36,802 nt of DNA from positions 1 through 36,802 of IMG/VR virus record IMGVR_UViG_3300043399_000977. One strand, written 5' to 3'. Under the pieces are notes generated by a model. It did no database searches and had not been told where the DNA came from. It worked only from the letters and a program-made list of their open reading frames with translations. This stretch comes from a virus. Numbering within the stretch: position 1 is the first letter of the stretch; the number at the start of each line of letters is the position of its first letter. This document shows positions 18,606 through 36,730 of the stretch, piece after piece. A program made the position numbers and the translations under genes.

Positions 18606-18862
18606 GGGATCGGTTCCTCGGCGAGCTGGGCTTTCGAGGCGCGCTGGACGATCGGCGGGATCGGAGGAAGGATCGGCGGGCTGTTCCGCATGAGCCACCA
18701 GATGCCGTTGAGGATCCAGTCGACGTGCTGCCGGAGCGACGCTTTTGCCAGGACCTTCCATGCCTCGCGGGCCGCCAGGTCTTCGGCCGTAGCCGGAGCC
18801 GGAATGGGGAGGGGCGAAGATTGAGTCGGCGTGGTCGGCGTCGTGCTGGTGGATTCTGTCAT
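18602..18862 (-). CDS. small protein with amphipathic membrane-like segment, start of lysis/fibre module
   Basis: The 86-residue product has a disordered threonine- and proline-rich N-terminus, a helical segment (HVDWILNGIWWLMR, about 46-59) and a proline-rich stretch (PPILPPIPPI). It is preceded by a copy of the 21-bp start-associated motif and is coupled by GTGA to the holin candidate. It could be a holin partner. Alternatively it is an unrelated late protein. No family is recognised. Confidence 0.45.
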   Translation of the reverse strand: MTESTSTTPTTPTQSSPLPIPAPATAEDLAAREAWKVLAKASLRQHVDWILNGIWWLMRNSPPILPPIPPIVQRASKAQLAEEPIP

Positions 18863-18883
18863 GACCTATGCGGGGCGCGTCAA
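18860..18883 (-). promoter_or_regulatory. start-associated motif, copy 5
   Basis: The minus strand reads TTGACGCGCCCC, then GCATAGGTC, ending directly at the ATG of the 86-residue gene. The TTGAC-to-ATG distance is 21 bases, the same as in the other copies. Confidence 0.65.
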
Positions 18884-18894
18884 CTCTCAGAGGA

Positions 18895-19809
18895 TCATCC
18901 GTCTTCGCGTCGGGCGGCGAAGTAGTCGGCGATGGCAGCCACCTGCTCCGGCTTGTCGGCGAGGGCCTGCTGAGACCAGATGGGGAGGCCGGTGTGGCGA
19001 TCCGCGGCGAGGTCGTTTCTCGGATCATATTGCTGGATCAAGGATGGGAGGTCGGGGTAGCGGCGGTTCTCGAGGGAGCCATGCCAGAAGTGACGGATCT
19101 CTCCGCGGATGTGGCCGATGGTGCCGCCGGCGGCCGCCGGGATGCCATCGGCCCAGCGGAGGATGTCGTCGATGTGCGCGCGGCCGAGGCGATTGACTCG
19201 CGGATGCTCGGCATGGAGGCGGCCCGTGCAGGCCAGCGCCAGCAGCGTGTCGCCATGGCTAATCGGCGAGACATACCATCCGCCGATCTGCTCGAAGAAT
19301 GAGCGACGGAACGCCCATGCGCAGCCCGGATGATACTGGATCCATTCGTCGAGAGAGTTGTGGTGGGCACCGTATCCGGTCGATGGGCGACACTCGTCAT
19401 CGGCTCCCTCTGGGGTGGTGTACCTGACCCGATGCCATGGCTGGATGACCGGGAATTCGTCGAGTGCGGCCGAGGCTTTGGCGGCCCAGTCGTCATCGAG
19501 GAACTCGATGTCCGCATCGAGGACCGCCACCTTGTCGACTTCCGGCGGGAGCGAGGCCGTGCCGAGGTTGAGCATGGCTTCCTTCCACCAAAATGCGGGA
19601 GTGTCCCATGGCAGACTCAGCTCGATCTCGGTGACCAGCGGAGAATCGAATCGACTGCCGGCAGGCAGCAGGCCCGGCGTGTCCAGAGTCAGAGAGACCA
19701 GAGTCCCCGGCACATTCTGGCGGATCATGCCCGCCACGAAGCGCTCGAGGTTCCGCTGCGGGCGCTCGTACTCGCAGGGGTTGTAATGGCAGGCGACCCA
19801 GTGGAGCAT
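18895..19809 (-). CDS. GT-A type glycosyltransferase
   Basis: The 304-residue protein begins with HWVACHYNPCEYERPQRN, a conserved opening of a group of phage and viral glycosyltransferases. AVLDADIEF (95-103) supplies the DxD motif (Asp98, Asp100) that holds the metal and nucleotide sugar. GGWYVSPISHGDTLLA (176-191) contains the acidic acceptor-site region, and HFWHGSLENRRY (240-251) is the late histidine motif. It would transfer a sugar to a protein or glycan. Its place between tail and lysis genes suggests it acts on virion proteins or on the host surface late in infection. Confidence 0.75.
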   Translation of the reverse strand: MLHWVACHYNPCEYERPQRNLERFVAGMIRQNVPGTLVSLTLDTPGLLPAGSRFDSPLVTEIELSLPWDTPAFWWKEAMLNLGTASLPPEVDKVAVLDADIEFLDDDWAAKASAALDEFPVIQPWHRVRYTTPEGADDECRPSTGYGAHHNSLDEWIQYHPGCAWAFRRSFFEQIGGWYVSPISHGDTLLALACTGRLHAEHPRVNRLGRAHIDDILRWADGIPAAAGGTIGHIRGEIRHFWHGSLENRRYPDLPSLIQQYDPRNDLAADRHTGLPIWSQQALADKPEQVAAIADYFAARREDG

Positions 19810-19815
19810 GGGAGA

Positions 19816-20322
19816 TCAGGTTCCGTATCCGCTGACGACGTCGCCGAAGAGCATCAGCTCGATCCGGAGATTCACCGGGCTGCTGACCGCCAGAGAGATG
19901 GCAGACGTGGCGACCGTCGAGACCCCGGCCTTCCGGGTCATGGCGATGCTGTCGCCTATGCCGAGGATGTGGGCAGCATCCTGCGGATTGAAGATGTCGG
20001 TCATCGTGACCGTGACCGTTCCGCTCGATGCCGAATCCGGATCGTAGGCCGAGACCCGGACGTGGATGCCCTTGATCTTGGCGAAGCTGGCAGCGAATCC
20101 GCTGAGCGTCTGGATGGGGACATCGGCCAGTTCCACGGCCGGAAAGTTGTCGATAAGGTAGGTGCCTGCGGCGGTCGGCAGGAGATTGAGCTTGATGGCC
20201 GAATCGACAGCCAGCTCCACGCGGTCGCTGGCGACCCCGCGGAATGCTCCGGTGGCCCCGGCAGTGGGCGGCTGCCAAAGGAAGCCGGACTCGAAAAGGA
20301 TGGAAGCGGATGGAACGATCAT
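19816..20322 (-). CDS. small beta-rich tail protein
   Basis: The 168-residue product alternates short strands (VRVSAYDPDSASSGTVTVTM, VNLRIELMLFG) and has no cysteine-based or catalytic motif. It lies 12 bases after the phosphoesterase-like tail gene and six before the glycosyltransferase gene. The fold looks like a beta-sandwich, as in many tail-tip and decoration proteins. No specific function is recognised. Confidence 0.5.
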   Translation of the reverse strand: MIVPSASILFESGFLWQPPTAGATGAFRGVASDRVELAVDSAIKLNLLPTAAGTYLIDNFPAVELADVPIQTLSGFAASFAKIKGIHVRVSAYDPDSASSGTVTVTMTDIFNPQDAAHILGIGDSIAMTRKAGVSTVATSAISLAVSSPVNLRIELMLFGDVVSGYGT

Positions 20323-20334
20323 GATGCGGATGGG

Positions 20335-21738
20335 TCAGAAACCAGAGACGAGAGCCCGCAGCTGGCAGCCGCGAGGGGCCGGGCGGCCCGCGATGGGGTC
20401 GAATAGGAGAGCGGCATTGTCCCCCTCCAGAGACAGCCCATCCGGCACCACCAGAGAGACAGCAGCCCCGGGGATGAGCGGCATGCGGGCCAGATACCAT
20501 GGCTCGTCGCCGTCATCGAAGTCAGCGACGGAGACCATGACAGCGCCCAGCGGTGCCGGTGGCTGGGGAGGCATCCATTCGCCCATGACGGCCGACCCGC
20601 TGACCCGCTCGCGGAATTCCCAGCGGAGGGCATCCTTGGTGACATCGATGGCGACAAAGCACTGCGCCGACGGGTAGCGCTCGCTTTGCTCAAGGAGGGC
20701 AGTTGTGCCGGAGACATCAGGCGTCGACGTCGACCCGCCGACGCAGCCGGAGACATTGATGATGCGGGTGCCAGCGACCACGAAGGTCTCGGTCGTCTTA
20801 CTGTTCCCGCAGAGGATGAGATCGAAGTGGCCAGACCGGGCCAACTCGACGGCCTCCGGAAGCAGCTGGACATTGTCCTGATCCGACGGATCCGCGTAGG
20901 ACACTGGCGGGTTGTGGATGACCGCGATGCGGAAGCGGCTGGCCACTGCCGCGAGCCGCGTCTCCATCCAGTTCCACTGGGCGAGGTTCCGGCGGAGGAC
21001 GGCGGCGGAGATCGATGGCTCGACGTTGAAGCCTTCGATTCCGGCCGACAGCATGAAGACATGCGCGAGGGCCACGCCGTTTGTGTCGACCCCGAACGTG
21101 CGGTCGTAGTAGTGGCGCGGGGAGCCCCCGCCGAATTCCGTCACGTATGGGAACTTCGTGGCGCAGAGGCTAAGGATATTGTTGGCCACCAGTTCCTGCG
21201 TGCCGAGAGCCGGAAGGAAGCGCTGGGCAGTGATTTCCGCGGCCCATGCGGCCGTGGCCGTATTGAGGGCGGTAGCGCCTCCCTCCCCTACCCCAGCAGC
21301 GAAGTTTCCGGCCACCAGCACGGTGGGCGTTCCGAGCGCGCGGACCGATGCGATGAGTTGGTTTTGCAGCGCGCCCGGCGCATCGATGCTTCCAAAGGCC
21401 GCAAAGGACAGGCGGGTCGTGGCTCCCGGGATCCAGTTGGGAATGGGCTGCGGGACTGGCTCGAGCGAGACCGTCAGCTGCCGGACGGTCTGCAGATCGG
21501 GATTCTGGATGATCCCATTCCGGAGACCGGATGTCAGTGAGGACGGCCCAAGAACGATGGAGCGGGAAGCGCCCGGCGTGGACTGGTCGGCCACCGTTGC
21601 AAAGTTGGGTCCCTCGCAGGAAATCGGCGTGCCGAATTCAACGGAGAACCGCATGGACTGCGTGAGGTCTGCCTCGTCCGGAATGATTTCCGCGACCATG
21701 GCGGCCCCGGCGGCGACTTTGTATCGAAACGGCTGCAT
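20335..21738 (-). CDS. tail protein with a degenerate metallophosphoesterase domain
   Basis: The 467-residue protein has a beta-rich first part (1-108), then a domain laid out like purple acid phosphatases: LSFAAFGSIDAPG (110-122), VLVAGNFAAG (140-149), FLPALGTQE (174-182), HYYDRTFGV (209-217), RIAVIHNPP (270-278) and FDLILCGNSKTTE (305-317). In active enzymes these positions read GD, GD, GNHE, H and GHxH. Here they read GS117, GN145, GTQE, His275 and GNSK, so most metal ligands are missing and the domain should be inactive. A beta-rich C-terminal part follows. A start-associated motif precedes ATG 21738. Probably a structural or binding role in the tail tip. Confidence 0.65.
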   Translation of the reverse strand: MQPFRYKVAAGAAMVAEIIPDEADLTQSMRFSVEFGTPISCEGPNFATVADQSTPGASRSIVLGPSSLTSGLRNGIIQNPDLQTVRQLTVSLEPVPQPIPNWIPGATTRLSFAAFGSIDAPGALQNQLIASVRALGTPTVLVAGNFAAGVGEGGATALNTATAAWAAEITAQRFLPALGTQELVANNILSLCATKFPYVTEFGGGSPRHYYDRTFGVDTNGVALAHVFMLSAGIEGFNVEPSISAAVLRRNLAQWNWMETRLAAVASRFRIAVIHNPPVSYADPSDQDNVQLLPEAVELARSGHFDLILCGNSKTTETFVVAGTRIINVSGCVGGSTSTPDVSGTTALLEQSERYPSAQCFVAIDVTKDALRWEFRERVSGSAVMGEWMPPQPPAPLGAVMVSVADFDDGDEPWYLARMPLIPGAAVSLVVPDGLSLEGDNAALLFDPIAGRPAPRGCQLRALVSGF

Positions 21739-21759
21739 GCCCATTGCTGGGCGCGTCAA
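21736..21759 (-). promoter_or_regulatory. start-associated motif, copy 4
   Basis: The minus strand reads TTGACGCGCCCA, then GCAATGGGC, ending at the ATG of the phosphoesterase-like gene. An extra ATG lies inside the motif two codons upstream, so the true start could be six bases earlier. Confidence 0.7.
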
Positions 21760-21762
21760 TCA

Positions 21763-22566
21763 TCAGGGGCCGTATCGGCGGACCCATTCGTAGTCCGCTT
21801 CCCACATCTGGAGCTTCCGGTCGCCAAGGATGTACTCGGCCATGACCCGGTGCGAGCCAGTCCACCATCCATCCCCGCCAGACGGCAGGCCCTCGGCATA
21901 GGTGACGAGTGGGTCCGGCATGGCCTGCCAGTTGATGGCCGTGGGGTCGGCCGTGTACGGGTTGGGCAGGTTGAGAGTCGGCGGTTTGAAGGTCTGGTTG
22001 CGGGTCGCGAGGAACGATCCACGGATGCTGTACGTGTAGCGCCGGCCGAGGAGGCGGACCCGCCATGGCTGGGCAGTCAGGGCGACTGTGGTGCCGCCCG
22101 TCTGAAAGACCCCGACCTGACGGATCCCGTTGCCCGGCGGCGCGTAGGGAGCCGGAAGGATGACCGTGACCCCGTCGCGTTCCTGTGGCCAGAGGGATTC
22201 CTCCGGAGAGACGCCGAGGTCGATGCTGTTGACCCGGACCCCGCTGCCCAGCAGCCCGATCCCGTTGAAGGCGAGCGGCGGCGACGAGTAGCCAGCCCAC
22301 TGGAGGTCGGCGATGAGGTAGCCGAAGCGGGACTCGCGGACGGTAGGGCCTGCGTAGAAGAGTTCCCGGGACGACCCGAACCCCGGAGCGTTTTGGGCCC
22401 CGAGATCGTAGAGGTTGTTGAGCTGGCTGATCGATCCACGGAAGCAGATGGTCGCGGCGAGGGTGTCGAATCCGCGGGGATTCGGTTGCAGGACGGGATC
22501 GGTTTCCCAGTCCCATCGGCCGCCGCCGCTGGCGACGTTGGCGAGATCGTAGTCTTCGAGAATCAT
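21763..22566 (-). CDS. distal tail-like structural protein
   Basis: The 267-residue product follows the tape measure with an ATGA overlap, the usual place for the distal tail or first minor tail protein. It is beta-rich, with many aromatic residues (GYLIADLQWAGYSS, RRYTYSIRGSF, WWTGSHRVMAEYILGD), and has no catalytic motif. Position is the main argument; the sequence does not match a family I can name. Confidence 0.55.
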   Translation of the reverse strand: MILEDYDLANVASGGGRWDWETDPVLQPNPRGFDTLAATICFRGSISQLNNLYDLGAQNAPGFGSSRELFYAGPTVRESRFGYLIADLQWAGYSSPPLAFNGIGLLGSGVRVNSIDLGVSPEESLWPQERDGVTVILPAPYAPPGNGIRQVGVFQTGGTTVALTAQPWRVRLLGRRYTYSIRGSFLATRNQTFKPPTLNLPNPYTADPTAINWQAMPDPLVTYAEGLPSGGDGWWTGSHRVMAEYILGDRKLQMWEADYEWVRRYGP

Positions 22567-24104
22567 TTTGGCAGGTCGAAGAATTTGGGTTTCTGGCCTT
22601 CAATTTTGGACGCCACGTTGTCGAGGCCCTGAACCATTTTCTGGCTCATGTCGCCAAGCGCTTTTGTGACAGGGTCTCCTGCCGTGGCATTGGCTCTGGA
22701 TCCAGCAGCTGCTGCGGCTTCCTTTTTAGCACCTTTCCTTTCTGGAGGGCTCCGGTAAACAAGGCCAGTGTAGACCTGCTCTTCGCTGAGGGAGCGGCGA
22801 TCCATGCGCTCCTGCATGTCATCGAAGGCAGCAAGACCACGAAGGCCAGTGTCGGCTTCCCCCTTGTACGTTTTGCGTCGACCGGAAGCGATCGCTTTGT
22901 TCAGCTCCATCTCCTCAGATGCCATGACTGCTGCTTCACCTGGTGACATTCCAGCTGCTTCCAGTTGCGCCCTCCGCGCCGTCTTCGCCTGCTGCTGCTG
23001 CAGCTCATCAGCCTTCTTGTTCCTGCCGGCTGCGCGGAGCCGCAGGACCTCGAGCGATGCTTGCGCCTCATCCCTCTGCGGCTTTGTGGCGGCCAGTTGC
23101 GCCTTCTTGGCTGCCTCGGCGTCGTCCTTCACCTTCTGCTCCGCGAGCCGCTTCTGCTCGGCCTCGGCCGCGGCCAGTTCTTCGCGGAGCCTCTTTCGGC
23201 GCGCCAGTTCTTCTTCGCTGGGCTGGTACTTGGCGATCATGTCTTCGCCCGTGGCAGCCTCGGTCAGTGACTCGAGGGAGAGGCCCTCGCCCTGCAGCAG
23301 CTTCATGGCTTCGCCCGTGAGGGCCCCGATGATGCCGGCGGTTTTCCCACCGGTCATGCCGATCCGCTTTTGGTCGAGCGCGTCCTTGAAGTTGTCGACC
23401 TTGTCCTGCGCAGACTCTGCAGCCTGAGGAAGCTGCTTGAGTTCCTTGATGATTCCGCGGACCCATTCGAGGGCATTCCCCTTGGGGACGCGGGCCGCAA
23501 GTTCGAGGAAGCCCGGGATGCGGGTGGCGATCTCCTTGAGGTTTTCCATGTCCACCTGCCCCGTCGAGATCATCGACTGAATGGACATGAGGACATCGTT
23601 CAGCTCAGCCTTTCCCTTCCCCGCATTGGTCAGTGCATTCCCGAACGCCACCAATGCCTCGCGGGCCTCGGCAGCGGAGAGCTTGGCCCCTTTTAGGGCC
23701 GTGGCACCTTGGATGGCTTCGCGGAATCCGAGGCCTGGCATCTTGGCTACCTCGCGGAGGGCCTCGAGTTCCTCCCGCAGGGTCTCGGATCCGTCACTCG
23801 TCGAGGACAGACCGCGCACCAGATTCTCGAATGATGCCTCGGCAGAAAACATCGATTTGCCCATGGCGAGCGCGCTGCCGCCAACCATCTTGAGCCCGCC
23901 TCCGATGACATTGATCTTGCTGCTCAGCTCCGTCCATCGGCCCACCGCGAACCCCTCCCCGGCAAGGGCCCCCTTGCTGATTTTCATCTGCTCGAGCCCA
24001 GCCTTGAATGCGCCCGCGTCCTGCTTGGCACCGTCGAGCGCAGCCTTGAATCCCCGCTTATCGAGAGTGAGCTGGGCACCGATGGATGATTTGCGGCCGG
24101 CCAT
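22563..24104 (-). CDS. tail tape measure protein
   Basis: The 513-residue protein begins IGAQLTLDKRGFKAALDGAK, the normal start of tape measure proteins, and continues mostly helical. It has a hydrophobic alanine- and glycine-rich part (about 60-90), a region on membership and grouping typical of this family (LVRGLSSTSDGSETL), and a long charged coiled coil (ARRKRLREELAAAEAEQKRLAE, about 300-330). It fixes tail length and is probably passed into the cell at injection. At 513 residues it is short and predicts a tail clearly shorter than that of lambda, whose tape measure has 853 residues. It follows the frameshifted chaperone gene by three bases. Confidence 0.8.
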   Translation of the reverse strand: MAGRKSSIGAQLTLDKRGFKAALDGAKQDAGAFKAGLEQMKISKGALAGEGFAVGRWTELSSKINVIGGGLKMVGGSALAMGKSMFSAEASFENLVRGLSSTSDGSETLREELEALREVAKMPGLGFREAIQGATALKGAKLSAAEAREALVAFGNALTNAGKGKAELNDVLMSIQSMISTGQVDMENLKEIATRIPGFLELAARVPKGNALEWVRGIIKELKQLPQAAESAQDKVDNFKDALDQKRIGMTGGKTAGIIGALTGEAMKLLQGEGLSLESLTEAATGEDMIAKYQPSEEELARRKRLREELAAAEAEQKRLAEQKVKDDAEAAKKAQLAATKPQRDEAQASLEVLRLRAAGRNKKADELQQQQAKTARRAQLEAAGMSPGEAAVMASEEMELNKAIASGRRKTYKGEADTGLRGLAAFDDMQERMDRRSLSEEQVYTGLVYRSPPERKGAKKEAAAAAGSRANATAGDPVTKALGDMSQKMVQGLDNVASKIEGQKPKFFDLPK

Positions 24105-24107
24105 GGA

Positions 24108-24763
24108 TCAGAGGTTGAGGGCTTCGAGCTGAGAGCGGACAGCCGCCTCGCGGGCGGCCCTTTCGGAGTTGGTCAGACAGTCGACTCCGGCAGCGTGGAG
24201 TCGGGCATGCATGCTGGCGTGCACTTCCCGCAGAGACATTCTGTGGAGCACGTAGTCTCGGCGGGCGGGGTCTCCATTGGTGAGGATGTTGACATAACAC
24301 TCAGTCCAGTGCGGAGCGGTTCCGTTTTTTTTTGTGGAGCGTCCCCGATTGGAGTTGCCATGGTCGCGTGGCCGTCGACCCAGAGCTGCAGGGCGAGAGC
24401 GAAGGCTTCCCCTTCCTCATTGTGCCGGATCGCGGAGGCGGCCCACGCAGCGATGGCGCGCCGGAGGCTGACGGGATCCATGCCGAGCGGGAGGGCGGAG
24501 TCGCTGCCGTCCTCATGCTCCGGAGTGCGTGGGGACCAGAAGTGCTCCGTGGGATGGGCGCAAACGTACAGGAAGACGAGCGCTTCCGAGAGAGTCTGCG
24601 GGATCGAGGTGGTGGCTGCGGCGTCGTAGTACTCCGCCTTGCCCGCGATGGTGAGGCGCCAGGGGAATCGGGAGATCAGCGGCTTGTCGAGATTGACCGC
24701 GGGGGCCGGGGCGGCCGTCGGCGCGGCCATAGCCGGATGCTGGGGGAACGAGTGGAATGTCAT
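24108..24763 (-). CDS. tail assembly chaperone, -1 frameshift (GT-like) product
   Basis: This frame joins 24763-24326 to 24326-24108 by a -1 shift on the A9 run. The first 146 residues are shared with the short form. Seventy-two residues follow in the -1 frame, starting NGTAPHWTECYVNIL and rich in arginine and alanine helices (REVHASMHARLHAAG, SERAAREAAVRSQLEALNL). The -1 frame stays open to a TGA only three bases before the tape measure ATG, which is the classic arrangement of lambda G and GT. The extension should bind the tape measure while the shared part binds tail tube protein. Confidence 0.75.
24173..24763 (-). CDS. tail assembly chaperone, short (G-like) product
   Basis: The zero-frame product has 196 residues. 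Its start overlaps the previous stop (ATGA). The N-terminal 140 residues (PLISRFPWRLTIAGKAEYYD ... LSEALVFLYVCAHP ... RRAIAAWAASAIRH) look folded. The tail after the slippery site (TEPLRTGLSVMSTSSPMETP) is low-complexity and cysteine-rich. Residue function is inferred from position directly before the tape measure gene. Most ribosomes are expected to make this form, with a minority shifting. Confidence 0.65.
   Translation of the reverse strand: MTFHSFPQHPAMAAPTAAPAPAVNLDKPLISRFPWRLTIAGKAEYYDAAATTSIPQTLSEALVFLYVCAHPTEHFWSPRTPEHEDGSDSALPLGMDPVSLRRAIAAWAASAIRHNEEGEAFALALQLWVDGHATMATPIGDAPQKKTEPLRTGLSVMSTSSPMETPPAETTCSTECLCGKCTPACMPDSTLPESTV
24323..24334 (-). other. slippery site for -1 ribosomal frameshift
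   Basis: On the minus strand nine A form C-AAA-AAA-AAA-CG, read in zero frame as CAA AAA AAA ACG. A tandem slip of AAA AAA by one base keeps perfect pairing. A short CGGA...TCCG stem follows directly, which may pause the ribosome. The next stops define the 196- and 218-residue products. Confidence 0.75.
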
Positions 24764-25602
24764 GAAGAGAGATGGCGAAGGAGTCGATCGCGGAAGCGGG
24801 CCGTGTCTTTGCGGCCGTCGCGGAGGGTGTCGGCAGAGACGATGGCGGAGCGCGCCGAGAACTTCGAACGGAAGGCGAGGCGGGGCGCGGCCTCCGCCGC
24901 CCTGCGGGCCTCGAGGAAGCCCGGCATGTTCAGGCAGGCTTGCAAGGCGTACAGGATCGGGTGTTCCTCGGGAGGGTATCCCGGGAGCCGGATGGGCTCG
25001 ACGATGCCCTCCGCGGGCCGCCGGATGGCCGCCATGAGCGGCGTGAGTTGGAGGGCCGGGAAAGTGATCGAATTTTCCGGGAATCCCCATGCAGGGAACC
25101 CAGACGGGCCGGAGAAGAGCTGCGGGGCCGGAATGAATCCGCAGGCAGCGAGAGCCGCGGCCACCGGCAGGGAGTCGATCCCGGAGGTGGGTTTCTCCGC
25201 TCGGATGGTCGGCGCACCGGTGGTGGGCCAGAGGAACGACATCCGCTTTTCCCAGCTGGGAGGATCAGCCTGCAGGACCGCCCATGAGGCGAGGGCAGCG
25301 TAGGCAGACAGTCCCGCCATGCAGGCGCAGAAGAATTCCCAGCCCGCCGGAGGATCCGCGAGGAGCGGGACCGCGCCGCTGGCATCGTACCGGACGCAGA
25401 GAGCCTGCGCATCGCTCTGCCGGTCTTCCACCCACCATGTGACCTCTGAGCCGAAGTCTCCAGCAAGCGCGTCTGTGGTGATGCGATAGCCCATGGTGGC
25501 GAGGGCCACAGCATACGGATGGGCCTGCAGATTGCGGGCGAGGTCGACCACCGGGGAGGATGGAGCGACCTTCGAAGGGAACGAGATGGGGAGCCGATGC
25601 AT
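24760..25602 (-). CDS. hypothetical tail-region protein
   Basis: The 280-residue product lies between the probable tail tube gene and the chaperone gene. It has a tryptophan-rich early part (GSEVTWWVEDRQSD, WEFFCACMAGLSAYAALASW) and a basic C-terminus (RDGRKDTARFRDRLLRHLSS). No family is recognised. A terminator-like hairpin separates it from the gene upstream, yet its leader has no Shine-Dalgarno sequence, so its expression may depend on read-through. Confidence 0.5.
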   Translation of the reverse strand: MHRLPISFPSKVAPSSPVVDLARNLQAHPYAVALATMGYRITTDALAGDFGSEVTWWVEDRQSDAQALCVRYDASGAVPLLADPPAGWEFFCACMAGLSAYAALASWAVLQADPPSWEKRMSFLWPTTGAPTIRAEKPTSGIDSLPVAAALAACGFIPAPQLFSGPSGFPAWGFPENSITFPALQLTPLMAAIRRPAEGIVEPIRLPGYPPEEHPILYALQACLNMPGFLEARRAAEAAPRLAFRSKFSARSAIVSADTLRDGRKDTARFRDRLLRHLSS

Positions 25603-25611
25603 GATGCGAAA

Positions 25612-25648
25612 TAGGGACCGCCCCCAGAAGATCCGGAAGCGGTCCCCT
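25612..25648 (-). terminator. terminator-like hairpin after the tail tube gene
   Basis: GGGACCGC (25614-25621) pairs with GCGGTCCC (25639-25646). The minus strand continues TATTTCGC. The U-run is short, so termination is probably partial. That would give more tail tube mRNA than mRNA for the genes downstream. Confidence 0.5.
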
Positions 25649-25664
25649 TGCTTGTCAGCGAGTG

Positions 25665-26132
25665 TTAGACCGCATCCGTATCCTGGATGATCTGGACATC
25701 CGTGGTCGGGCTCCAGCGGAGCGTGAGTTCGAAGGTCACCTTCTGGAGTTCAGCAGGCGTGGCCGTGCGGCTTGGGTTTCCCATGACCCAGATGCCAGAG
25801 GTGGGGAATCCGTGCGAGAGATTCGCCGTGTACGGAGCCACCGTCGCTGGCGAGAGCGCCGCGCCCGGGTGGGCATTGGACATGGCGTCAGATACCGTCA
25901 GATTCTCGGCGTCGACGTTGGCCTTGATCTGCGGATTGGACATGATGTCCACGATGCCCTCGTGCCCGCGGTGGTCCTTTTTCCGGACCACGTCGCGCGT
26001 GGGACTGACCGCAAACGAGTTGAGCAGCAGGCCCGCAATCGGGGCGGCGACCCCGAAGGCGAACTGAGAGAATGAGGCCGCGGATGTGCGGACCACAGCG
26101 GCCGCGAGCGGGTTGATGGGAGTGGCTGGCAT
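25665..26132 (-). CDS. probable major tail tube protein
   Basis: The 155-residue protein is beta-rich (VAPYTANLSHGFPTSGIWVMG, VTFELTLRWSPTTDVQI), without catalytic motifs, and sits before the chaperone and tape measure genes, the usual place of the major tail protein. It has its own copy of the start-associated motif and is followed by a partial terminator, as expected for a highly made structural protein. A TTG start at 26153 inside the motif would add seven residues; ATG 26132 is preferred by analogy with the other copies. Confidence 0.55.
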   Translation of the reverse strand: MPATPINPLAAAVVRTSAASFSQFAFGVAAPIAGLLLNSFAVSPTRDVVRKKDHRGHEGIVDIMSNPQIKANVDAENLTVSDAMSNAHPGAALSPATVAPYTANLSHGFPTSGIWVMGNPSRTATPAELQKVTFELTLRWSPTTDVQIIQDTDAV

Positions 26133-26153
26133 GCCCTTTGCGGGCGTCGTCAA
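26130..26153 (-). promoter_or_regulatory. start-associated motif, copy 3
   Basis: The minus strand reads TTGACGACGCCC, then GCAAAGGGC, ending at the ATG of the probable tail tube gene. GCCC-GCAAA-GGGC could fold as a 4-bp hairpin in this copy. Confidence 0.7.
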
Positions 26154-28913: not shown

Positions 28914-28920
28914 GAGAGGA

Positions 28921-28959
28921 AATGAAAAGCCCCCGACCCGGACGAACCGGACCGGGGGC
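28921..28959 (-). terminator. terminator between capsid and connector genes
   Basis: GCCCCCG (28929-28935) pairs with CGGGGGC (28953-28959), and CCGG (28938-28941) with CCGG (28947-28950) inside. The minus strand then reads TTTTCATTTCC. It probably caps the abundant capsid transcript. The sequence entering the hairpin on this strand is TTTGGTTTGGTTG, the complement of the leader motif before two early genes. Confidence 0.65.
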
Positions 28960-28987
28960 CAACCAAACCAAAGGTTGGGTGAGTGTC

Positions 28988-29527
28988 TCAGCGCTTCTTT
29001 TTCCCGCTGACGGATGGGGCGGCGGTGTCCTCGGCGGCCGGAATCCCTTCCGTGCCGACCGGGCCTTTCTCGCCAATTGGGCCATCGGCTCCAGCAGGAA
29101 CCTCCACCGAGACCGGCTGGTCGTCCGGCTCGGCGGGGTCCTTGTCTGCGTCGAGGCAATCCGATTCCGAAGAGGGAGCCGGGAGCTGTTCCCCAACTGC
29201 TCCCGGCTCGAGCGCTGCCAATTCGGCCTTCAGCTCGGCGATGCGGTCGGCCTTGGCTTTCGCCTCGGCCTCTGCTTTCGCGGTCGCTGCGGCCTCGGCC
29301 TTGGACTGCTGCGCTGCCTTCTCTTCCGGAGTGGTGAAGTTGACCCGGCGGGTTGGCCGGCCATTGGAGAAAACGATCTCGATGACTGCGAACCCGTCGC
29401 CATCGTCGACGCGGGCCTTGGCATCGAGAGCGTCTTCCTGATCCGGTACGGAGACATCCGGACCGGCGATGAGGACCGGAGGAGACTCCGAGTCCTTGAA
29501 TCCAACCGTGAGAGCGTAGAACTGCAT
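28988..29527 (-). CDS. hypothetical head-module protein with coiled coil
   Basis: The 179-residue product follows the major capsid gene. The first 70 residues are beta-like (MQFYALTVGFKD, FAVIEIVFSNGRPTRRVNFT). An alanine-, glutamate- and lysine-rich helix follows (EKAAQQSKAEAAATAKAEAE, about 75-110), then a disordered acidic, proline-rich tail ending in KKKR. It could be a capsid decoration or head-completion protein. Its AC-rich leader lacks a Shine-Dalgarno sequence. Confidence 0.45.
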   Translation of the reverse strand: MQFYALTVGFKDSESPPVLIAGPDVSVPDQEDALDAKARVDDGDGFAVIEIVFSNGRPTRRVNFTTPEEKAAQQSKAEAAATAKAEAEAKAKADRIAELKAELAALEPGAVGEQLPAPSSESDCLDADKDPAEPDDQPVSVEVPAGADGPIGEKGPVGTEGIPAAEDTAAPSVSGKKKR

Positions 29528-29556
29528 GATGGTGGTGGTTCAGCCGATCCGATGGA

Positions 29557-30471
29557 TCAAGCGGAGACGATGCGCTTGAGGCCGTTAGACTCGATGACAC
29601 CGAAGCCGTAGGCGCACTCGATGATGCTCTGGACGGTATCGAGAGCCGGGTTGCCCCACTCGCGGTACGTGAGGATGAAGCTCTGGTCCTCGTCCATGTA
29701 CTGCTCGTATGCGGTGAGTTGATCGCGGACGCCAGCGGCCGGAGCCACTGGAGCCATGGCGATGCCGATGGCGGAGGGCACAGCGATGAAGCCCACGAGG
29801 TTCTGCGCATTGGCCGGAACCTTCGCACCGCCGTAGTAGCGGAACCCGAGCAGGTCGGGGACCGTGCCGGTTCGGACGGCATCCGGGCTGCCGTAGTTCA
29901 TACTACCGATGACGCCGGAATCGGTAATTAGCTTGGCGTGGTAGGCCGGATTGAGCACGAGGGAGCGGGATCCTTCGGGGAATTCTGCCTCAATGGCAGC
30001 CTGCTGGAGGGTGGCCACTACGCTCAGCGCCATGGAAGCAGCCGCACCGGTGTAGGCAGCCGCGCCGAAGTTGGCCAGCGTGATGCTGCTGGCGACGTCA
30101 TCGCTGACGTCGGCCACCAGCTTGAAGACTTTCTGGGCCATGATTTCATCGGTCAGGAGACCGGGCTGATCGCGGACGTCCTGCGAGCTGTATCCGAGGG
30201 ACTGATACTTCCGCTTGTTGACGGTGATCGGCTTGGCGGAGACGGTGCCATCTCCCGCCACGTACCCATTTGCGGCGTTCCAGTCCGTGGAGGCGGCGGA
30301 TTCCAGAGGGACGTATGGGACGGCGACGACGTTGGTGCCTTGGAGGCTGACCGGGGTTTCGCTGACTTTGTAGGCGAAGGAACGGATGAGTGCGAGGCGA
30401 GGCTTGAGAGCGCGGACGATCTCAGAGAGAACCGCTTGGCGCTTGAGATTGGAGTCGATGATGGCGGCCAT
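29557..30471 (-). CDS. major capsid protein
   Basis: The 304-residue protein lies after the protease and a coiled-coil protein and before the connector genes, the standard place for the coat protein. The N-terminal helix (QAVLSEIVRALKPRLALIRSFAYK), the central strand-rich part with an extended loop (VNKRKYQSLGYSSQDV), and a late part with LVLNPAYHAKLI and TYREWGNPALDTVQSIIECAYGFGV fit an HK97-fold coat. Catalytic motifs are absent. The leader is AC-rich (CACCACCACGCCCAGCCC) and has no Shine-Dalgarno sequence although this should be the most abundant virion protein. Confidence 0.75.
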   Translation of the reverse strand: MAAIIDSNLKRQAVLSEIVRALKPRLALIRSFAYKVSETPVSLQGTNVVAVPYVPLESAASTDWNAANGYVAGDGTVSAKPITVNKRKYQSLGYSSQDVRDQPGLLTDEIMAQKVFKLVADVSDDVASSITLANFGAAAYTGAAASMALSVVATLQQAAIEAEFPEGSRSLVLNPAYHAKLITDSGVIGSMNYGSPDAVRTGTVPDLLGFRYYGGAKVPANAQNLVGFIAVPSAIGIAMAPVAPAAGVRDQLTAYEQYMDEDQSFILTYREWGNPALDTVQSIIECAYGFGVIESNGLKRIVSA

Positions 30472-30506
30472 GATGCTGGATGGTTATGGGCTGGGCGTGG
30501 TGGTGA

Positions 30507-31127
30507 TCAGTTTTTGCCGAAGATCCGGTCTTTGTGCTTGGCGAGGAAGTCCTGCCGTTCCCGGATGGATTTGCAGGCTGCGAGCTGCTCCTCGAGTTCC
30601 TTGAGGCTGGCAGCCTCGGAAGACGGGGCCGACGGGATGGTGGCCGCGGGGACGCCGAGGGAGCGGACAGCAGCGCCGACTCCTTCGGACACCGCGGCTT
30701 CGAAAGCGGCGGCGGGATTGGAAGCGGCATTGGCACCGTGTCCCTGACTTTGCAGCCACGCGCCGATCCTCTCGAGATCTGCGCGCTGGGCGGCCACTTC
30801 CTGCTGGAGGGCGGCGATGGTGGCATCGCGATCGGCAACAGCGGCGCGGAGGCTGTTCAGCTCGGCCTCGTGACCGGCGATGGTGGTGGCCAGCTGCTTC
30901 TTGCTGCTGGCGTAGGCGGCGATGCGGGCGAGGAACCCGGGTTCTCCTTCTTCCTCCTTCCGGGCCGCCGGCGCAGGGGTTGATTCAGGCCCCTGCGCCG
31001 GGGCTGGTGCTGGAGCGGCTGGCGTAGATGCCGCGGGTCCTGGTGGCGGAGCAGGAATGGGATCCTGCGCGGATGCAGAAAACGAGAGGGCGAAAATGGC
31101 GAGGAAAACGGCGAGGAAGTTTTTCAT
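30507..31127 (-). CDS. coiled-coil protein with signal peptide in the head module
   Basis: The 206-residue product starts with what looks like a Sec signal (MKNFLAVFLAIFALSFSASA). A proline- and alanine-rich linker (about 22-55) follows, then a coiled coil (KKQLATTIAGHEAELNSLRA ... AALQQEVAAQRADLERIGAW, about 75-125) and a helical C-terminus. Between protease and coat genes one expects a scaffold, and the coiled coil fits that, but scaffolds are cytoplasmic and have no signal. It may be a membrane-targeted scaffold, a virion protein with a hydrophobic end, or an envelope protein placed here by chance. Confidence 0.55.
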   Translation of the reverse strand: MKNFLAVFLAIFALSFSASAQDPIPAPPPGPAASTPAAPAPAPAQGPESTPAPAARKEEEGEPGFLARIAAYASSKKQLATTIAGHEAELNSLRAAVADRDATIAALQQEVAAQRADLERIGAWLQSQGHGANAASNPAAAFEAAVSEGVGAAVRSLGVPAATIPSAPSSEAASLKELEEQLAACKSIRERQDFLAKHKDRIFGKN

Positions 31128-31155
31128 GCGACGAGCGATGAGCGATTGCGTGTGT

Positions 31156-31176
31156 GCCCTTTGCGATGCGCGTCAA
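31156..31176 (-). promoter_or_regulatory. start-associated motif, copy 6 (displaced)
   Basis: The minus strand reads TTGACGCGCATC, then GCAAAGGGC, as in the other copies, but here no ATG follows; the next gene starts 28 bases downstream at 31127. This copy argues that the motif is not merely a shared N-terminal coding sequence. Confidence 0.6.
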
Positions 31177-32027
31177 AGCAGAGCCCCAAGGAATTCCTCG
31201 AAGGTCGGGATCGATGCAGAGTCGACGAGACCAGCCGGAGCCAGTCGGGCTTCCCATGCTTGCCCCTGCATGCTGGATGCGGTGAGGCCGCGGCGCTCAG
31301 CCATCCACGCCTTGAATTCGTCACTGTACGTCTGCACCATCTGACGCATGTGGGCATCGTGGGCATCCGTGATCGGCCCAGCGCCGATTCCCTTCAGCGC
31401 GGAGTCGGCAGTGTAGACCCGTTTTTCCACCCCGAGCTTTGCCCAGAATCCGGAAGCATCCGAGAGACTGGCGATGGTGCCGATGCTGCCGACGTATGCG
31501 CCGGGAGCGGCATGGATGGCATCGGCTGCGGCGGCGAGATACATGCCGGCAGAAGCGGCGAGCCGCTGCGAGTATGCGATGACATCGACCCCGGGCCGCA
31601 TGGCCGAGATGCTGCGGAGGGCATCGGCTGCGGCGCGGAGTCCGAGGACGGATCCGCCAGGTGTGTCGAGCTGGAGGATCAGCGCGGAGATCTGCGGATT
31701 GCTCGCCACCGTGCGGACTGCTTGATGGATGCGGTCGAGATTGAAGACGCCATACCAGTCCTCCATTTCAGGGGATGCACCAGAGACGATGACGCCATTG
31801 ATTGGCTGGATGGCGACGACCCGCACGCCAAGCTGCAGGAAGCGGAGGGCGTTGGTATCTGGTTGCCCCTTTTCCTTAGTTGCTGCCTTTGGGGATTCCG
31901 CTTGGATGCGGACACGGCCCGCGAGGTAGTCCTGCATGAGCATGGGGACGTCGACGGCGACCGGGTGGCTGGCCAGAGAGGCCAGGCCGAAAGCGGAGAG
32001 GAAATTTTCGATATTTTGCAGGGTCAT
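31173..32027 (-). CDS. S49 (SppA-like) prohead protease
   Basis: The 284-residue protein has the S49 peptidase layout: INGVIVSG (76-83), ALILQLDTPGGSV (115-127), AYSQRLAASAGMYLA with probable nucleophile Ser159, GAYVGSIGTI (177-185) and SALKGIGAG with probable general base Lys212. It lies between portal and capsid genes, as lambda gpC does, and should cut scaffold and head proteins during maturation. Unlike lambda C it is not long enough to include a scaffold part, which may be the next gene. Its 29-base leader is exactly the 29-bp repeat. Confidence 0.85.
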   Translation of the reverse strand: MTLQNIENFLSAFGLASLASHPVAVDVPMLMQDYLAGRVRIQAESPKAATKEKGQPDTNALRFLQLGVRVVAIQPINGVIVSGASPEMEDWYGVFNLDRIHQAVRTVASNPQISALILQLDTPGGSVLGLRAAADALRSISAMRPGVDVIAYSQRLAASAGMYLAAAADAIHAAPGAYVGSIGTIASLSDASGFWAKLGVEKRVYTADSALKGIGAGPITDAHDAHMRQMVQTYSDEFKAWMAERRGLTASSMQGQAWEARLAPAGLVDSASIPTFEEFLGALL

Positions 32028-32028
32028 C

Positions 32029-32057
32029 GGAAAAAGTTGGTACAGATGTGTGACAGT
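32029..32057 (-). repeat. 29-bp leader repeat, copy B
   Basis: This copy is identical to 28487-28515 on the same strand. It fills the gap between the portal stop codon, whose last base it includes, and the protease ATG, leaving one further base. No Shine-Dalgarno sequence is present, so translation of the protease must start on this leader. Confidence 0.9.
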
Positions 32058-33523
32058 CAGGATTGAGGCGGCGGAGACCCCGCCGATGGCATCAGGAGGG
32101 TGGGATCGATGCCGGCCGCGGCGCATTGCTCCTGGGCAAACTTGAGTTCCGCGACCCGCTGCTTGATCTGGTCCTGCCACGTCTCGCCCTGCTCGCCGTA
32201 TTCCATGGCCCATGTGGTCAGGCCGGTCTCGAGTCGGCTTCGCTGGGCGGCCGCGTCCCGGCCTTCGTCGATGGTCACCGACCGCGGGTAGTTGATGGCA
32301 TGCCGCCACCACCGCGGGTCCTTGGGCCGTGGGACCTGCCGGGTCCGGATGGCCCACTCGACGCGGCGGATGTAGTCGACGACGGCGAAGCCGACTTGCT
32401 TGTCGAGCCATGTGAGCCGCCACTCCTGCGCCTGACGGAGGACGAAGCGGACGCCTGGGCCGGTGAGCTTGTCGAGCATGAACAGCAGCTCGACAGGGAC
32501 GCCGAGTCCCATGGCGATCTGGGCGTAGATGTCGTTTTTCACCGCCGCCTGCGATGGGAAGTCGCGACCGTCGGTGAGCGGTTTGATCGAGACACCGGGA
32601 GGAAGATTGGCGATCTCGGCACTGTCGACCACCTCGTTGACCCTCCGGGGAATCTTGGCAGATGCCGGGACACCCGGCATGGGTTTGGTGCCGACATCGG
32701 CGAGATTGTCGACGCGGCTTTTTCCGGACAGCGGATTGATTTCCGAGGCTACGGTTCCGGGTGCCCGCTCAACCACGAGCCCGAAGAGGCTGTGGATCTT
32801 CAGGATTTTCAGCGAGGCATTGTCGACCTCCCGGTAACTGATGATTTGGGGGATCGCATGGATTAACGCAGGGGTGCCTCGGGTTGCGCTGTGGGTCTCG
32901 TAATTGGCGAAGAGGTGGGCGGATCCAGCAGGAATGATGACATCAGATCCGGACGTCGATTCCGCCCGAATGTTGTAGGCGAGGTGTCGGTAGTTGGGGC
33001 CGATGCGGACACCGTCGCTCCAGTCGTTGCCCGCGCTGCGTGTCGGATTGTCGACGAGAGCAGACTCGACAGCGACCACGATGGGCGCACCGGATTCATC
33101 GGTGGCATGGACTGCCAGCATGTCCCCGTCGCGGAATGTGCTGAAAAGGGCATTGGTCAGAAACTCGGAGGCCGTGAACTTCCCGGTCGCGTCGTAGGCC
33201 CCAGGCCTGCGCTCGTAGGTCTCGGTCCACCACTCCTGGAGGGCAGCATTGAAGATCGGATCGGTGGTGGCTGGGCGGATGCTGATGGATCCGACCCATC
33301 GGGCGAGGTCGCGGGTGGCCTTGCGCGCCGGTGGGATATTCCATGCGGCCCACTGGGATCGGCGGCGGGCCTCGCGCCGGGTGTATTCCGTAAACTGCTG
33401 CTTCCCGTTGAGATTCGGGAAAAAGATGTACCCATGATCCTGCGAGTCGTTGGCGGCAGCGATGCCGGACGTCCATGCGGCAGGGGCGATGGGCTCTTCT
33501 GCGATGTCTGTGGGCGAATTCAT
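32057..33523 (-). CDS. portal protein (lambda gpB-like)
   Basis: The 488-residue protein has the marks of lambda-type portals: TRREARRRSQWAAWNIPPARKATRDLARWVG in the N-terminal part (key: R-R-x-S-x-W and the W-x-x-P-A helix), FSTFRDGDMLAVHATD, SAHLFANYETHSATRGTPAL with the conserved R-G-x-P, and IISYREVDNASLKILKIHSL. Twelve copies would form the DNA gate at one capsid vertex. The start ATG overlaps the stop of the gpW-like gene. The C-terminus is proline- and serine-rich. Confidence 0.85.
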   Translation of the reverse strand: MNSPTDIAEEPIAPAAWTSGIAAANDSQDHGYIFFPNLNGKQQFTEYTRREARRRSQWAAWNIPPARKATRDLARWVGSISIRPATTDPIFNAALQEWWTETYERRPGAYDATGKFTASEFLTNALFSTFRDGDMLAVHATDESGAPIVVAVESALVDNPTRSAGNDWSDGVRIGPNYRHLAYNIRAESTSGSDVIIPAGSAHLFANYETHSATRGTPALIHAIPQIISYREVDNASLKILKIHSLFGLVVERAPGTVASEINPLSGKSRVDNLADVGTKPMPGVPASAKIPRRVNEVVDSAEIANLPPGVSIKPLTDGRDFPSQAAVKNDIYAQIAMGLGVPVELLFMLDKLTGPGVRFVLRQAQEWRLTWLDKQVGFAVVDYIRRVEWAIRTRQVPRPKDPRWWRHAINYPRSVTIDEGRDAAAQRSRLETGLTTWAMEYGEQGETWQDQIKQRVAELKFAQEQCAAAGIDPTLLMPSAGSPPPQS

Positions 33524-33807
33524 TGAACGCGGCGGGTGGAAAGGTCGATGCCGATATTGACCGGGCTGCGCACGAGATCGGGATCGGCCCCGGTGGACGA
33601 TGTCTTGAGGTAATCGAGGGCGGCATTGCAGTCCTCGATGATCTGGCCTGCGTTCTCGATGCTGATGGTCATCGAGGAGCCCTCGTAGTTCCGGGTGGTG
33701 GTGCCGCCTTCCATGCGGACATCGAGGGCGACCTTGCGGATGCCCGCAATGTCCTCGGCGGAGTAGGTTTCCGCGAGGGCGCGGACGGTGGAGGGATCGG
33801 CTGGCAT
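33520..33807 (-). CDS. gpW-like head-tail joining protein
   Basis: The 95-residue product (MPADPSTVRALAETYSAEDI ...) has helix, beta-hairpin (TTRNYEGSSMTIS) and helix (ENAGQIIEDCNAALDYL), as in lambda gpW, which binds below the portal. The gene lies between large terminase and portal, as in lambda. The C-terminus (SPVNIGIDLSTRRVQ) is extended. The ATG at 33807 is exactly at the end of a start-associated motif. A longer frame reaching into the terminase gene is not used. Confidence 0.7.
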   Translation of the reverse strand: MPADPSTVRALAETYSAEDIAGIRKVALDVRMEGGTTTRNYEGSSMTISIENAGQIIEDCNAALDYLKTSSTGADPDLVRSPVNIGIDLSTRRVQ

Positions 33808-33828
33808 GTCCTTTGCGGGCGGGGTCAA
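33805..33828 (-). promoter_or_regulatory. start-associated motif, copy 2
   Basis: The minus strand reads TTGACCCCGCCC, then GCAAAGGAC, ending at the ATG of the gpW-like gene. The TGA in TTGAC is also the stop codon of the large terminase gene. Confidence 0.7.
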
Positions 33829-35855
33829 ACTTGCGTCTGCTCGTCCTGCTCGACGGCATGGATGAGGACGAGGCCGTACTTGAGGAGGTCGGCCATGTCG
33901 TTGGGGCGCGCGGCGTTCCGCTTCCGCCACCGCAGTTCTCGGACGTTGCCCTTGTTGGGCTTGTCGTAGAAGTGTTCCATGTTGCCGATTTCCGCGAGGA
34001 TGTCGTCTGGCGTATCGATAGGCAGATGGATGGCGGGCCGGGTGCTTCGGCCGTCGGCCGCCTTGGCAATCCGCTCGATGTGCAGCTCATGCTCCCAGTG
34101 GTCGGCCTTGATGCCGATGAGGCGGACAAGGCATGCCTCGCCGAAGGCGGTGCGGCCTTGATATTCCTTGGTCCATCGGGGAGAGACCCGAGCCATGCGG
34201 TCGGTTGCGGCGGACCGCCCGCGGATGCCGACCCACCGGGTGGATCCGCCATGCGTCGACCCGCCCATGGCTGCGAGGAAGCCGGTCACGAGGTCCTCCC
34301 GATACCCGGTGTCGATGCAGGCGATGGCGACGGTCCATGGGTTGTCCGGGTCGTCCCTGTCCTTGAACGGCCGGGCCTCGATGACGGATGGGAGGTCCTC
34401 GAGTTCCGGGACCGTCCCCCAGTCGAGGACCCATTCGGATCCGTCCCACCCGGCGGCGAAGATGGCCCATTTGACCTCGCCGATCTGGCCGACGTCGTTG
34501 CCTTGGCCACGCTGCACGTCGGCGGCGAGGCCAAGGAAGCGGATCTCGGAAGAATTGAGCGGGATGGCGAGGGACGGCTGGCCATCCCATTTGAGTCGGC
34601 GGTACCCTCGGCGGAGTTTTGCGACGGCTTCGTCTGCGGGCCGCTTGGCCTGGTAACGGGCGAACGGGCGGCCGAGGAATTCGGTGTGGAATGCTTTGAT
34701 GCTGGCTTCCGATCCCGCTTCGGAGGCATCGATGAAGGCATTGGCAATGGCTCCCCATCGGCGGGACGCAAATGCTTGATTGAGCAGGGACGAAACCGCG
34801 AGGGAGCGATGCGCGACCGCGGGACTGAGGTTTTGAGCCACGAACCGGCGGCGGGCAATCATGTCGCCCTTCGCGGATTCGTCGATCCGTTCCTTGCAGC
34901 CGGTGCATTCGTAGTAGGTCTCGGTGAGGACGCGGTCGCGATTCCAGACAGGGCGACTGTCGGTCTCGGAGAACGGGAGGGATTCCTTGCAGTGCCCGAA
35001 GCGAAGATTTTCGAAGACCAGTTCTTGCCAGTGCCCGCAGTGGGGACAGGGAACCTCGCAGCGCTCCTGCGTCCCTCGGAGGTAGGAGGAATGGATGACG
35101 GTCTCGCGAGTCACCACAGGGACGCGGCGGCCGGTGATCGGGTCCTCCTCGTAATCGAGGGCGTCGTCGGGAGTGCTGAACGCGAGGAGGCGGGCGTCGT
35201 CGTCGCCGGTGATCCGGCCCTCAAGGAGGGTGAGGGACGGCATGCCATCGATGAGGTCGTGCTTGGCCACTTCATCGGCGATGCTGATGGAGGCTGGCTT
35301 GCTGATGAATTCGGAAGCGGACTGTCCACCACCGAGGTAAAGGGTCCCCCGGGAATACCGGAGGGCCATGGACGTGGAGGTCTTTTCATTCCGCTCGGCG
35401 CGCAGCTCCGGGTATGCGTCGAGGACTGGCGAGAGACGGTCGCGGGCGAAGTCTCGGGCCTGCTGCCGGCAGTCCGTCACGAAGATCATGTTGCCGCCAC
35501 GGTACCGCGCCCACCACGCCAGCCCATGCAGGGCGACGGTCGAAAGCCCGGACTGGGAGTCTTTGATGACGCAGGCCGTGCGGTTTCTGATCGGGCGCTT
35601 GGAGCCGTCGGCGAAGAGCACCTCGGTGGTCGGCTCGCGGAGGAATTCGAAGACCCAGTCGGCGAGGACGGAGAACCGGGAGAACTCCCACACCTTCCCG
35701 GCGGCGGCCGCCATGCGGTTGTGCTGCGCAGGAATCGGGAGCCGGTGACCTTCGACCCAGTCCCGGATGCGGGGCTCTGGCTCGAGGACAGGATGGGAGC
35801 GGATCAGTTCGATCCAGCTGCCCACGAGGCCGAGATGAATGCGACGGTCACTCAT
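33825..35855 (-). CDS. terL: terminase large subunit, GpA family
   Basis: The 676-residue protein is a lambda GpA-type packaging motor. KDSQSGLST (98-106) is the deviant Walker A of this family (compare lambda KSARVGYS). ISIADEVA (190-197) is Walker B with Asp194-Glu195. A zinc-binding block is seen as CEVPCPHCGHW and, later, YECTGCKERI. VACIDTGYRED near residue 470 begins the nuclease part. It cuts concatemers at cos and pumps DNA into the prohead with ATP. It overlaps the small subunit gene by ATGA. Family membership strongly suggests cos, not headful, packaging. Confidence 0.95.
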   Translation of the reverse strand: MSDRRIHLGLVGSWIELIRSHPVLEPEPRIRDWVEGHRLPIPAQHNRMAAAAGKVWEFSRFSVLADWVFEFLREPTTEVLFADGSKRPIRNRTACVIKDSQSGLSTVALHGLAWWARYRGGNMIFVTDCRQQARDFARDRLSPVLDAYPELRAERNEKTSTSMALRYSRGTLYLGGGQSASEFISKPASISIADEVAKHDLIDGMPSLTLLEGRITGDDDARLLAFSTPDDALDYEEDPITGRRVPVVTRETVIHSSYLRGTQERCEVPCPHCGHWQELVFENLRFGHCKESLPFSETDSRPVWNRDRVLTETYYECTGCKERIDESAKGDMIARRRFVAQNLSPAVAHRSLAVSSLLNQAFASRRWGAIANAFIDASEAGSEASIKAFHTEFLGRPFARYQAKRPADEAVAKLRRGYRRLKWDGQPSLAIPLNSSEIRFLGLAADVQRGQGNDVGQIGEVKWAIFAAGWDGSEWVLDWGTVPELEDLPSVIEARPFKDRDDPDNPWTVAIACIDTGYREDLVTGFLAAMGGSTHGGSTRWVGIRGRSAATDRMARVSPRWTKEYQGRTAFGEACLVRLIGIKADHWEHELHIERIAKAADGRSTRPAIHLPIDTPDDILAEIGNMEHFYDKPNKGNVRELRWRKRNAARPNDMADLLKYGLVLIHAVEQDEQTQV

Positions 35856-36709
35856 GCCACAAGCAGGTCCTCGATGGTATCAGGTGATGCCGCGAAGGCC
35901 GACCGGACGGCCTCGACGGCCACGTCTCGTGGGACGTGCGGAACCAGCCCAGCCACAATGGACTGGGCGAGCGCCGGAAGAAACCGGACGAGGGCGGAGT
36001 TGACCTCCGCAGGATCGAGCAGCTCCCGCATCTTTTCGGCCCGGGACCGCTGCATGATCAGCAGTTCCGATGCCTCAGACCACCGGCGGCGATGCACTTC
36101 CTGCGCAGCCTCGGATTCCCCGGTCGCGACCGCCTGCAGGTAGCGCTGATGGAGCCGGGCCTCGTCATCCTGCAGCCGCGCGATGACGGACCGGGTCGAG
36201 AGATCGACTTCCGGCGCATCGAGGACCGGAGGAGGCGGAGGAGGAACCGGATCGGCGACGGCCGCAGCGGGAGCCGGGGCCGATTGCGCCGGCGGAGCTG
36301 AGGCCCGCGCGGCAGCTTCGATGAGAATCTCAGGGACGGCATGCTTGAGATGCCCAGCCTCGCGCATCTGCTGATACCAGACGATCATTTGCTCCGGATT
36401 GCCCAGTGGGGCCGGGATACCTTGTTCCGCGCCCAGCTTACGCCAGCGCTGCAGCCGACGCTCGACAGCGAGCGATCGCTCCTCGCAATAGAGATGGAGA
36501 TAGGCCGCCGTACCGCGGACATGCGCCGCGCCCGGCTCGAGCCGAAACCCATCCGCCGGAGCCGGATCGGCCACAGGGCCAGATGACCGGTCGACGAGTT
36601 CGAGGTACCGGGCCCACTCGCGCGTTTCCGGAAGGATCCTCCCACGACTGACCAGAGCCTCGAGGGCCCGCAGCTCAGCAGCCTCCCTTGGAGACAGAGT
36701 TTGATCCAT
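35852..36709 (-). CDS. terS: probable terminase small subunit
   Basis: The 285-residue protein is the first late gene, directly before the large terminase and about 80 bp from cos. The N-terminal part is helical and basic (SPREAAELRALEALVSRGRI, ERSLAVERRLQRWRKLGAEQ). A proline- and alanine-rich linker lies at about 137-165, and the C-terminal half is helical (RSVIARLQDDEARLHQRYLQ, EVNSALVRFLPALAQSIVAG). It would bind DNA near cos and hold the large subunit by its C-terminus. It is longer than lambda Nu1 (181 residues). The call depends on position more than on motif. Confidence 0.65.
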   Translation of the reverse strand: MDQTLSPREAAELRALEALVSRGRILPETREWARYLELVDRSSGPVADPAPADGFRLEPGAAHVRGTAAYLHLYCEERSLAVERRLQRWRKLGAEQGIPAPLGNPEQMIVWYQQMREAGHLKHAVPEILIEAAARASAPPAQSAPAPAAAVADPVPPPPPPVLDAPEVDLSTRSVIARLQDDEARLHQRYLQAVATGESEAAQEVHRRRWSEASELLIMQRSRAEKMRELLDPAEVNSALVRFLPALAQSIVAGLVPHVPRDVAVEAVRSAFAASPDTIEDLLVA

Positions 36710-36730
36710 GCCCTATGCGCCCCCCGTCAA
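36707..36730 (-). promoter_or_regulatory. start-associated motif, copy 1
   Basis: The minus strand reads TTGACGGGGGGC, then GCATAGGGC, ending at the ATG of the small terminase gene. This is the only copy with no phage gene directly upstream, since cos lies behind it. Confidence 0.65.

Follow-up and report, generated by a model that had tools for sequence, protein, structure and literature searches.

Mycobacteriophages of cluster K carry start-associated sequences (GGGATAGGAGCCC) with the Shine-Dalgarno core AGGAG, present in 11–19 copies and located 3–7 bp from the starts of non-structural genes (PMC3203893). In the giant phage AR9, late promoters have the form AACA-N6-TA/G, require the phage non-virion RNA polymerase, and give transcripts with 5′ UTRs of 26–491 nt (PMC5312081); in Thermus phage P23-45, middle and late phage transcription runs from an extended -10 class and is spared when the -10/-35 promoters of the host are inhibited (PMC7403470). 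Intergenic repeats in Halovirus HF2 were later proved to be promoters by reporter assay and primer extension (PMC8707807).

Here we describe a short two-part element in an IMG/VR virus record of 36,802 bases, the whole of which we refer to as the window. Like the cluster K sequences, its copies are short, non-palindromic and all oriented the same way, immediately ahead of ATG starts, but there is no sequence likeness between the two. The element is not a GGGATAGGAGCCC-like 13-mer with a Shine-Dalgarno core 3–7 bp before a start, and the resemblance to cluster K suggested in an earlier, sequence-only reading of this DNA fails on the AGGAG core, on the 3–7 bp placement, and on the non-structural half in which those sequences lie (PMC3203893). 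As in AR9, a short two-part element stands at the front of many late units and ends at the (here predicted) start base, although it differs in sequence and length, we found no polymerase gene, and the majority of copies directly adjoin the ATG. The HF2 repeats also lie in intergenic gaps, and in that case sequence and position are conserved across the virus genus, but they are archaeal TATA/BRE promoters of 29–58 bp. The P23-45 middle/late promoters are likewise a phage-specific class, but differ in sequence and are recognised via host sigma A with phage gp39.

The motif TTGAC-N7-GCAWWGGNC occurs on the minus (coding) strand at exactly six places, one per late sub-module (Table 1). These are the six sites of the sequence-only reading, all of whose sequences we found on the minus strand, and its statement that five of them end exactly at an ATG is also correct, with the ATG forming bases 22–24 of the site in those five. 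A weight-matrix scan, the check suggested with that reading, places the six copies far above other genome sites rather than among equal numbers of chance matches: the six-copy matrix scores the copies at 25–29 bits and the next genome site at 9.1. In a jackknife, with the matrix built from five copies and run over both strands of the whole genome, the sixth copy is always the top site (17.9–24.7 bits) and the best other site scores 10.0–10.9; in 200 Markov shuffles the maximum score averages 12.6 and reaches 19.4 at the highest. A loose consensus with three mismatches gives nine matches against 5.4 expected, which is not above chance, so the signal is carried by the near-exact copies. Taken with the jackknife and the gap in six-copy matrix scores, this leads us to conclude that the six copies are real and constitute a discrete set.

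Table 1. Late promoter copies (putative), hairpins and candidate regulators in the window.
Feature	Coordinates	Strand	Remarks
Late promoter copy 1	36710..36730	-	TTGACGGGGGGCGCATAGGGC; putative small terminase gene; predicted +1 A36709 = A of ATG
Late promoter copy 2	33808..33828	-	Head-joining gene and portal; predicted +1 A33807 = A of ATG
Late promoter copy 3	31156..31176	-	Scaffold and major head protein; followed by ACACAC...; predicted +1 A31155, 28-nt leader to scaffold-gene ATG at 31127
Late promoter copy 4	26133..26153	-	Putative tail tube; predicted +1 A26132 = A of ATG
Late promoter copy 5	21739..21759	-	Putative tail tip; predicted +1 A21738 = A of ATG
Late promoter copy 6	18863..18883	-	Head of fibre/lysis block; predicted +1 A18862 = A of ATG
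Terminator hairpin T1	28928..28960	-	Ends scaffold-capsid unit; -27 kcal/mol and T-tract
Hairpin T2	25613..25647	-	Directly after putative tube gene; 62-nt gap folds at -33 kcal/mol
Helix-turn-helix protein, candidate late transcription factor	7263..8105	-	280 aa; conserved; weak C-terminal helix-turn-helix match
HTH_3 protein, second candidate regulator	4968..5573	-	Cys-rich stretches; conserved in window, G001, G004, G009, G011

Late genes are ordered, from position 36802 down, as putative small terminase, large terminase, small head-joining gene, portal, protease, scaffold, major head protein, tail genes, fibre and endolysin. Beyond the endolysin are the integrase, a BRO-type antirepressor, and an early block comprising a helix-turn-helix protein, a sliding-clamp homologue, an HTH_3 protein, a nuclease-like gene, a primase, and a primase/helicase-like gene. 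The block names given in the sequence-only reading stand where PHROGs supports them (portal, large terminase, major head protein, fibre and endolysin; the head protease is also supported), and those of tail tube, tail tip and head-tail joining, together with small terminase, are by position only. Coding-strand GC skew flips at the early/late border, from about -0.09 to +0.21 (527–36709), as it also does in four relatives. A 12-base direct repeat, AGTTTCCCGACC, is present at both contig ends (1–12 and 36791–36802), and the related contigs G002 and G004 start at the same base as the window, which is therefore very probably a complete genome with cohesive ends, i.e. probably a linear molecule with 12-nt cos ends. 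Copy 1 begins 72 bp inside the contig end.

Several further features accompany this layout. In phage and plasmid collections, the integrase (13528–14721) has its nearest matches in an Akkermansia phage and an Akkermansia plasmid, which makes a Verrucomicrobiota bacterium the probable host; a host search by two genome-contig scans (large terminase alignment and integrase) found no relative. On the plus strand at 14820–14910 a tRNA 3′ end (GTGGGTTCGAATCCCGCCAGCCCGACCA), likely attP, adjoins the integrase and is followed by a strong hairpin and T-tract on the same strand. A ~31-bp repeat (GTAGGGACGGCTACTTCCCGCGTAGCGGGCA) occurs in three to four tandem copies at 430–530, after the last early gene, and a DNA polymerase sliding-clamp homologue is present at 5767–7665 in this small temperate phage, adjoining the helix-turn-helix gene.

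Relatives were collected by a viral-contig search with the large terminase (66–98% identity to that of the window) and fall into clade I (77–98%; G001, G012, G004/G003 and G002), in all of which copy 1 is conserved, and clade II (66–68%; G009, G011, G006, G007 and G005). Far from being absent at the corresponding genes, the motif is kept there in about a dozen related phages, and near-complete relatives carry 4–6 copies each at matching module heads, all on the coding strand. Both boxes are kept at fixed spacing while the sequence of the 7-base spacer drifts. The clade I form is TTGAC-N7-GCAWAGG, with some drift, and that of clade II is TTTGAC-N5-CGGTRR; counterparts of copy 2 read TTGAC-N7-GCA or TTTGAC-N5-CGGT, and a degenerate form remains at the small terminase genes of G011 and G007 (TTTGCC / TTTGTC). 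In the outgroup an additional site stands ahead of another tail gene, from which we conclude that the element moves relative to genes. The major head protein (29557–30471) is 95% identical to that of L020 and the large terminases are 67% identical, indicating a recent exchange of the capsid block.

Among 46 viral stretches with motif matches, the motif was not found more than once in any viral contig outside the family, the one apparent exception being G013, an unrelated phage in which one of the two matches lies within the portal gene. The single matches, among them three copies of one site in G014–G016, were taken as chance, and a search of Akkermansia records with the loose pattern gave no late-promoter-like set. 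The proposal that a new late-gene control element heads the sub-modules is well supported.

The relatives also bear on the 21-base link from TTGAC to ATG: it holds for five copies in the window but is not the constant feature, since the base immediately following the element (position 22 of the site in clade I and 23 in clade II) lies 0, 1, 6 or 25–32 nt from the ATG, depending on the gene and the phage. At the tube gene this distance is 0 in the window, G001 and G012, 6 in G004, 26 in G002, and 25–28 in clade II. The scaffold gene has a leader of 28–30 nt in all relatives, and in G004 the counterpart of copy 5 is shifted to AATG and that of copy 6 has a 32-nt leader. That following base is A at 43 of the 44 sites aligned, the exception being a GTG start in G009; it is A at all 18 sites lacking an ATG there, which represent different genes and both clades, although the sites are related and this count overstates their independence. 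Judged from these alignments, a constant A at variable distance from the ATG fits a site of transcription initiation, not a signal to the ribosome.

Two of the units headed by the element end in hairpins. T1 is at the same place in seven of seven genomes, 2.2–2.4 kb after the scaffold copy; the T-tract of T2 is weak in the window (few T), and its counterpart in relatives is located ~0.5 kb after the tube copy. Both are strong hairpins, and both are present again in the late regions of all relatives that were checked. An arrangement in which the putative capsid and tube genes each sit between a promoter and a terminator meets the needs of a phage for its most abundant proteins. The choice between transcription and translation, which the sequence-only reading had left open, is tipped by the relatives towards transcription because the element is kept 25–32 nt from the ATG, because the A follows it where there is no ATG, and because two units end in conserved terminators.

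Shine-Dalgarno use also differs between the two halves of the genome. With an assumed 16S tail, 9 of 12 early starts pair at -8 kcal/mol or better, against 1 of 18 late starts, the latter being below local background (p 0.014). The AAAGGG part of the motif is, as had been pointed out, too near the ATG to be a normal Shine-Dalgarno sequence, and the weak pairing at late starts fits leaderless or SD-free late messages. SD-scarce translation has been reported for some Verrucomicrobia (PMC10783764).

The element does not match the promoter classes with which we compared it. The absence of a -10 box 17 bp from TTGAC, remarked on earlier, was borne out, there being no -10 hexamer 16–18 bp after TTGAC(A) at any copy; sigma70-like sites number one in the late region against 2.3 expected, this one not at any copy, and no other promoter-like signal was seen there. 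Promoters for sigma54 have the form TGGCAC-N5-TTGC with GG and GC 10 bp apart, and the aligned sites here read TTGAC-N7-GC/GT with no GG doublet at the first element. The TATAAATA of T4-type late promoters is absent at -10 from all aligned sites; as regards the clamp of that system, a homologue is present in the window and none was found in G011. What we do find, i.e. several near-identical copies on one strand that head late units and are conserved in relatives, is characteristic of a phage-specific late promoter family. As a class such promoters are known; the geometry, the sequence and the probable factor are new.

We therefore favor, with good though incomplete confidence, the interpretation that the copies are late promoters of one family, whose products are leaderless or have short leaders. 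RNA polymerase would be directed to a two-part element with TTGAC ~21 bp and GCAWAGG ~9 bp upstream of the start, and would initiate at the A that follows; against this stands that a 21-bp distance from TTGAC to +1 fits no characterised bacterial sigma factor known to us. Where this +1 is the A of the ATG, as predicted for five of the six copies, the mRNA would be leaderless, and the scaffold gene mRNA would have a 28-nt leader without a Shine-Dalgarno sequence; middle and late transcripts of Thermus phage P23-45 are reportedly leaderless. The nested late units may then set the amount of each virion block separately, above all scaffold-capsid and tube.

The element would be read by host RNA polymerase together with a phage-encoded factor, for which the helix-turn-helix protein (Table 1) is the best candidate. 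This protein occurs in all relatives whose contigs include the early region, and its profile gives five matches among 2.9 million viral contigs, all of them records of this phage family. It has no significant family match, but a weak match to AsnC-type / sigma region 4 helix-turn-helix domains is seen at its C terminus, and in G004, G009 and G011 this is the only sigma region 4-like match, below the curated cut-off. The motif change between the clades (GCA to GGT) coincides with a change in the recognition helix, but only one evolutionary split is involved. In G011 and G005 the gene is the last before cos and the small terminase. AlphaFold models were too poor to be informative (pLDDT 52, and 42 for the putative tube protein), and a PDB fold search gave nothing. 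The HTH_3 protein is conserved as well and stays as an alternative reader. It is a tentative and rather doubtful extension of these observations that the helix-turn-helix protein founds a new family of phage initiation factors, which would guide the RNA polymerase of the host towards a compact -21/-9 promoter, separating a leaderless, SD-free late programme from an SD-driven early one.

An alternative with the same promoters is that the reader is a host alternative sigma factor. In its favor, no sigma region 2 homologue was found in five genomes, a PF00940 search for a T7-type polymerase gave no match in the same number (with no positive control), no convincing DxDGD-type polymerase motif was seen, and none of the coding ORFs without an assignment is as large as an RNA polymerase. 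We nonetheless regard this as unlikely, since the motif was not found more than once in any viral contig outside the family and its clade-specific drift suits a phage-encoded reader. It is improbable that the element acts instead in the mRNA, recruiting ribosomes or a translational regulator near the start in the manner proposed for cluster K: the exact abutment of five window copies on the ATG and the lack of Shine-Dalgarno sequences at late genes would be accounted for, but many orthologues have the element 25–32 nt from the ATG with no compensating change, there is no RNA structure at the element (mean z +0.27 at 44 sites, so that an RNA hairpin at the motif is rejected) and no 16S pairing at usable spacing, and copies are paired with downstream terminators.

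Binding sites resembling operators or stoperators, at which a phage repressor or activator silences or boosts late transcription made elsewhere, could equally be asymmetric, in one orientation and in short intergenic gaps, and two helix-turn-helix proteins are conserved across the family. However, a fixed 21–22 bp to an A that is kept without an ATG is not expected of operators, nor is a promoter-to-terminator arrangement, and no other promoters are seen in the late region; we find this explanation quite implausible. The last possibility, that the copies are linkers promoting inter-phage recombination with no role in expression, agrees with their position at the borders of exchangeable blocks and with the relationship to L020 (95% for the major head proteins, 67% for the large terminases), but it is very remote, given that a 7-base spacer drifting between conserved ends is the wrong pattern for homologous crossover and that the relation to the +1 A is fixed.

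If the late-promoter interpretation is true, a compact promoter of odd geometry, apparently without a polymerase or sigma factor of its own, would point to a previously unknown way of steering bacterial RNA polymerase. A leaderless, SD-free late programme could be tested beside an SD-rich early one within a single genome. For phages of the Verrucomicrobiota, the probable hosts, almost no gene control is described in the literature searched.
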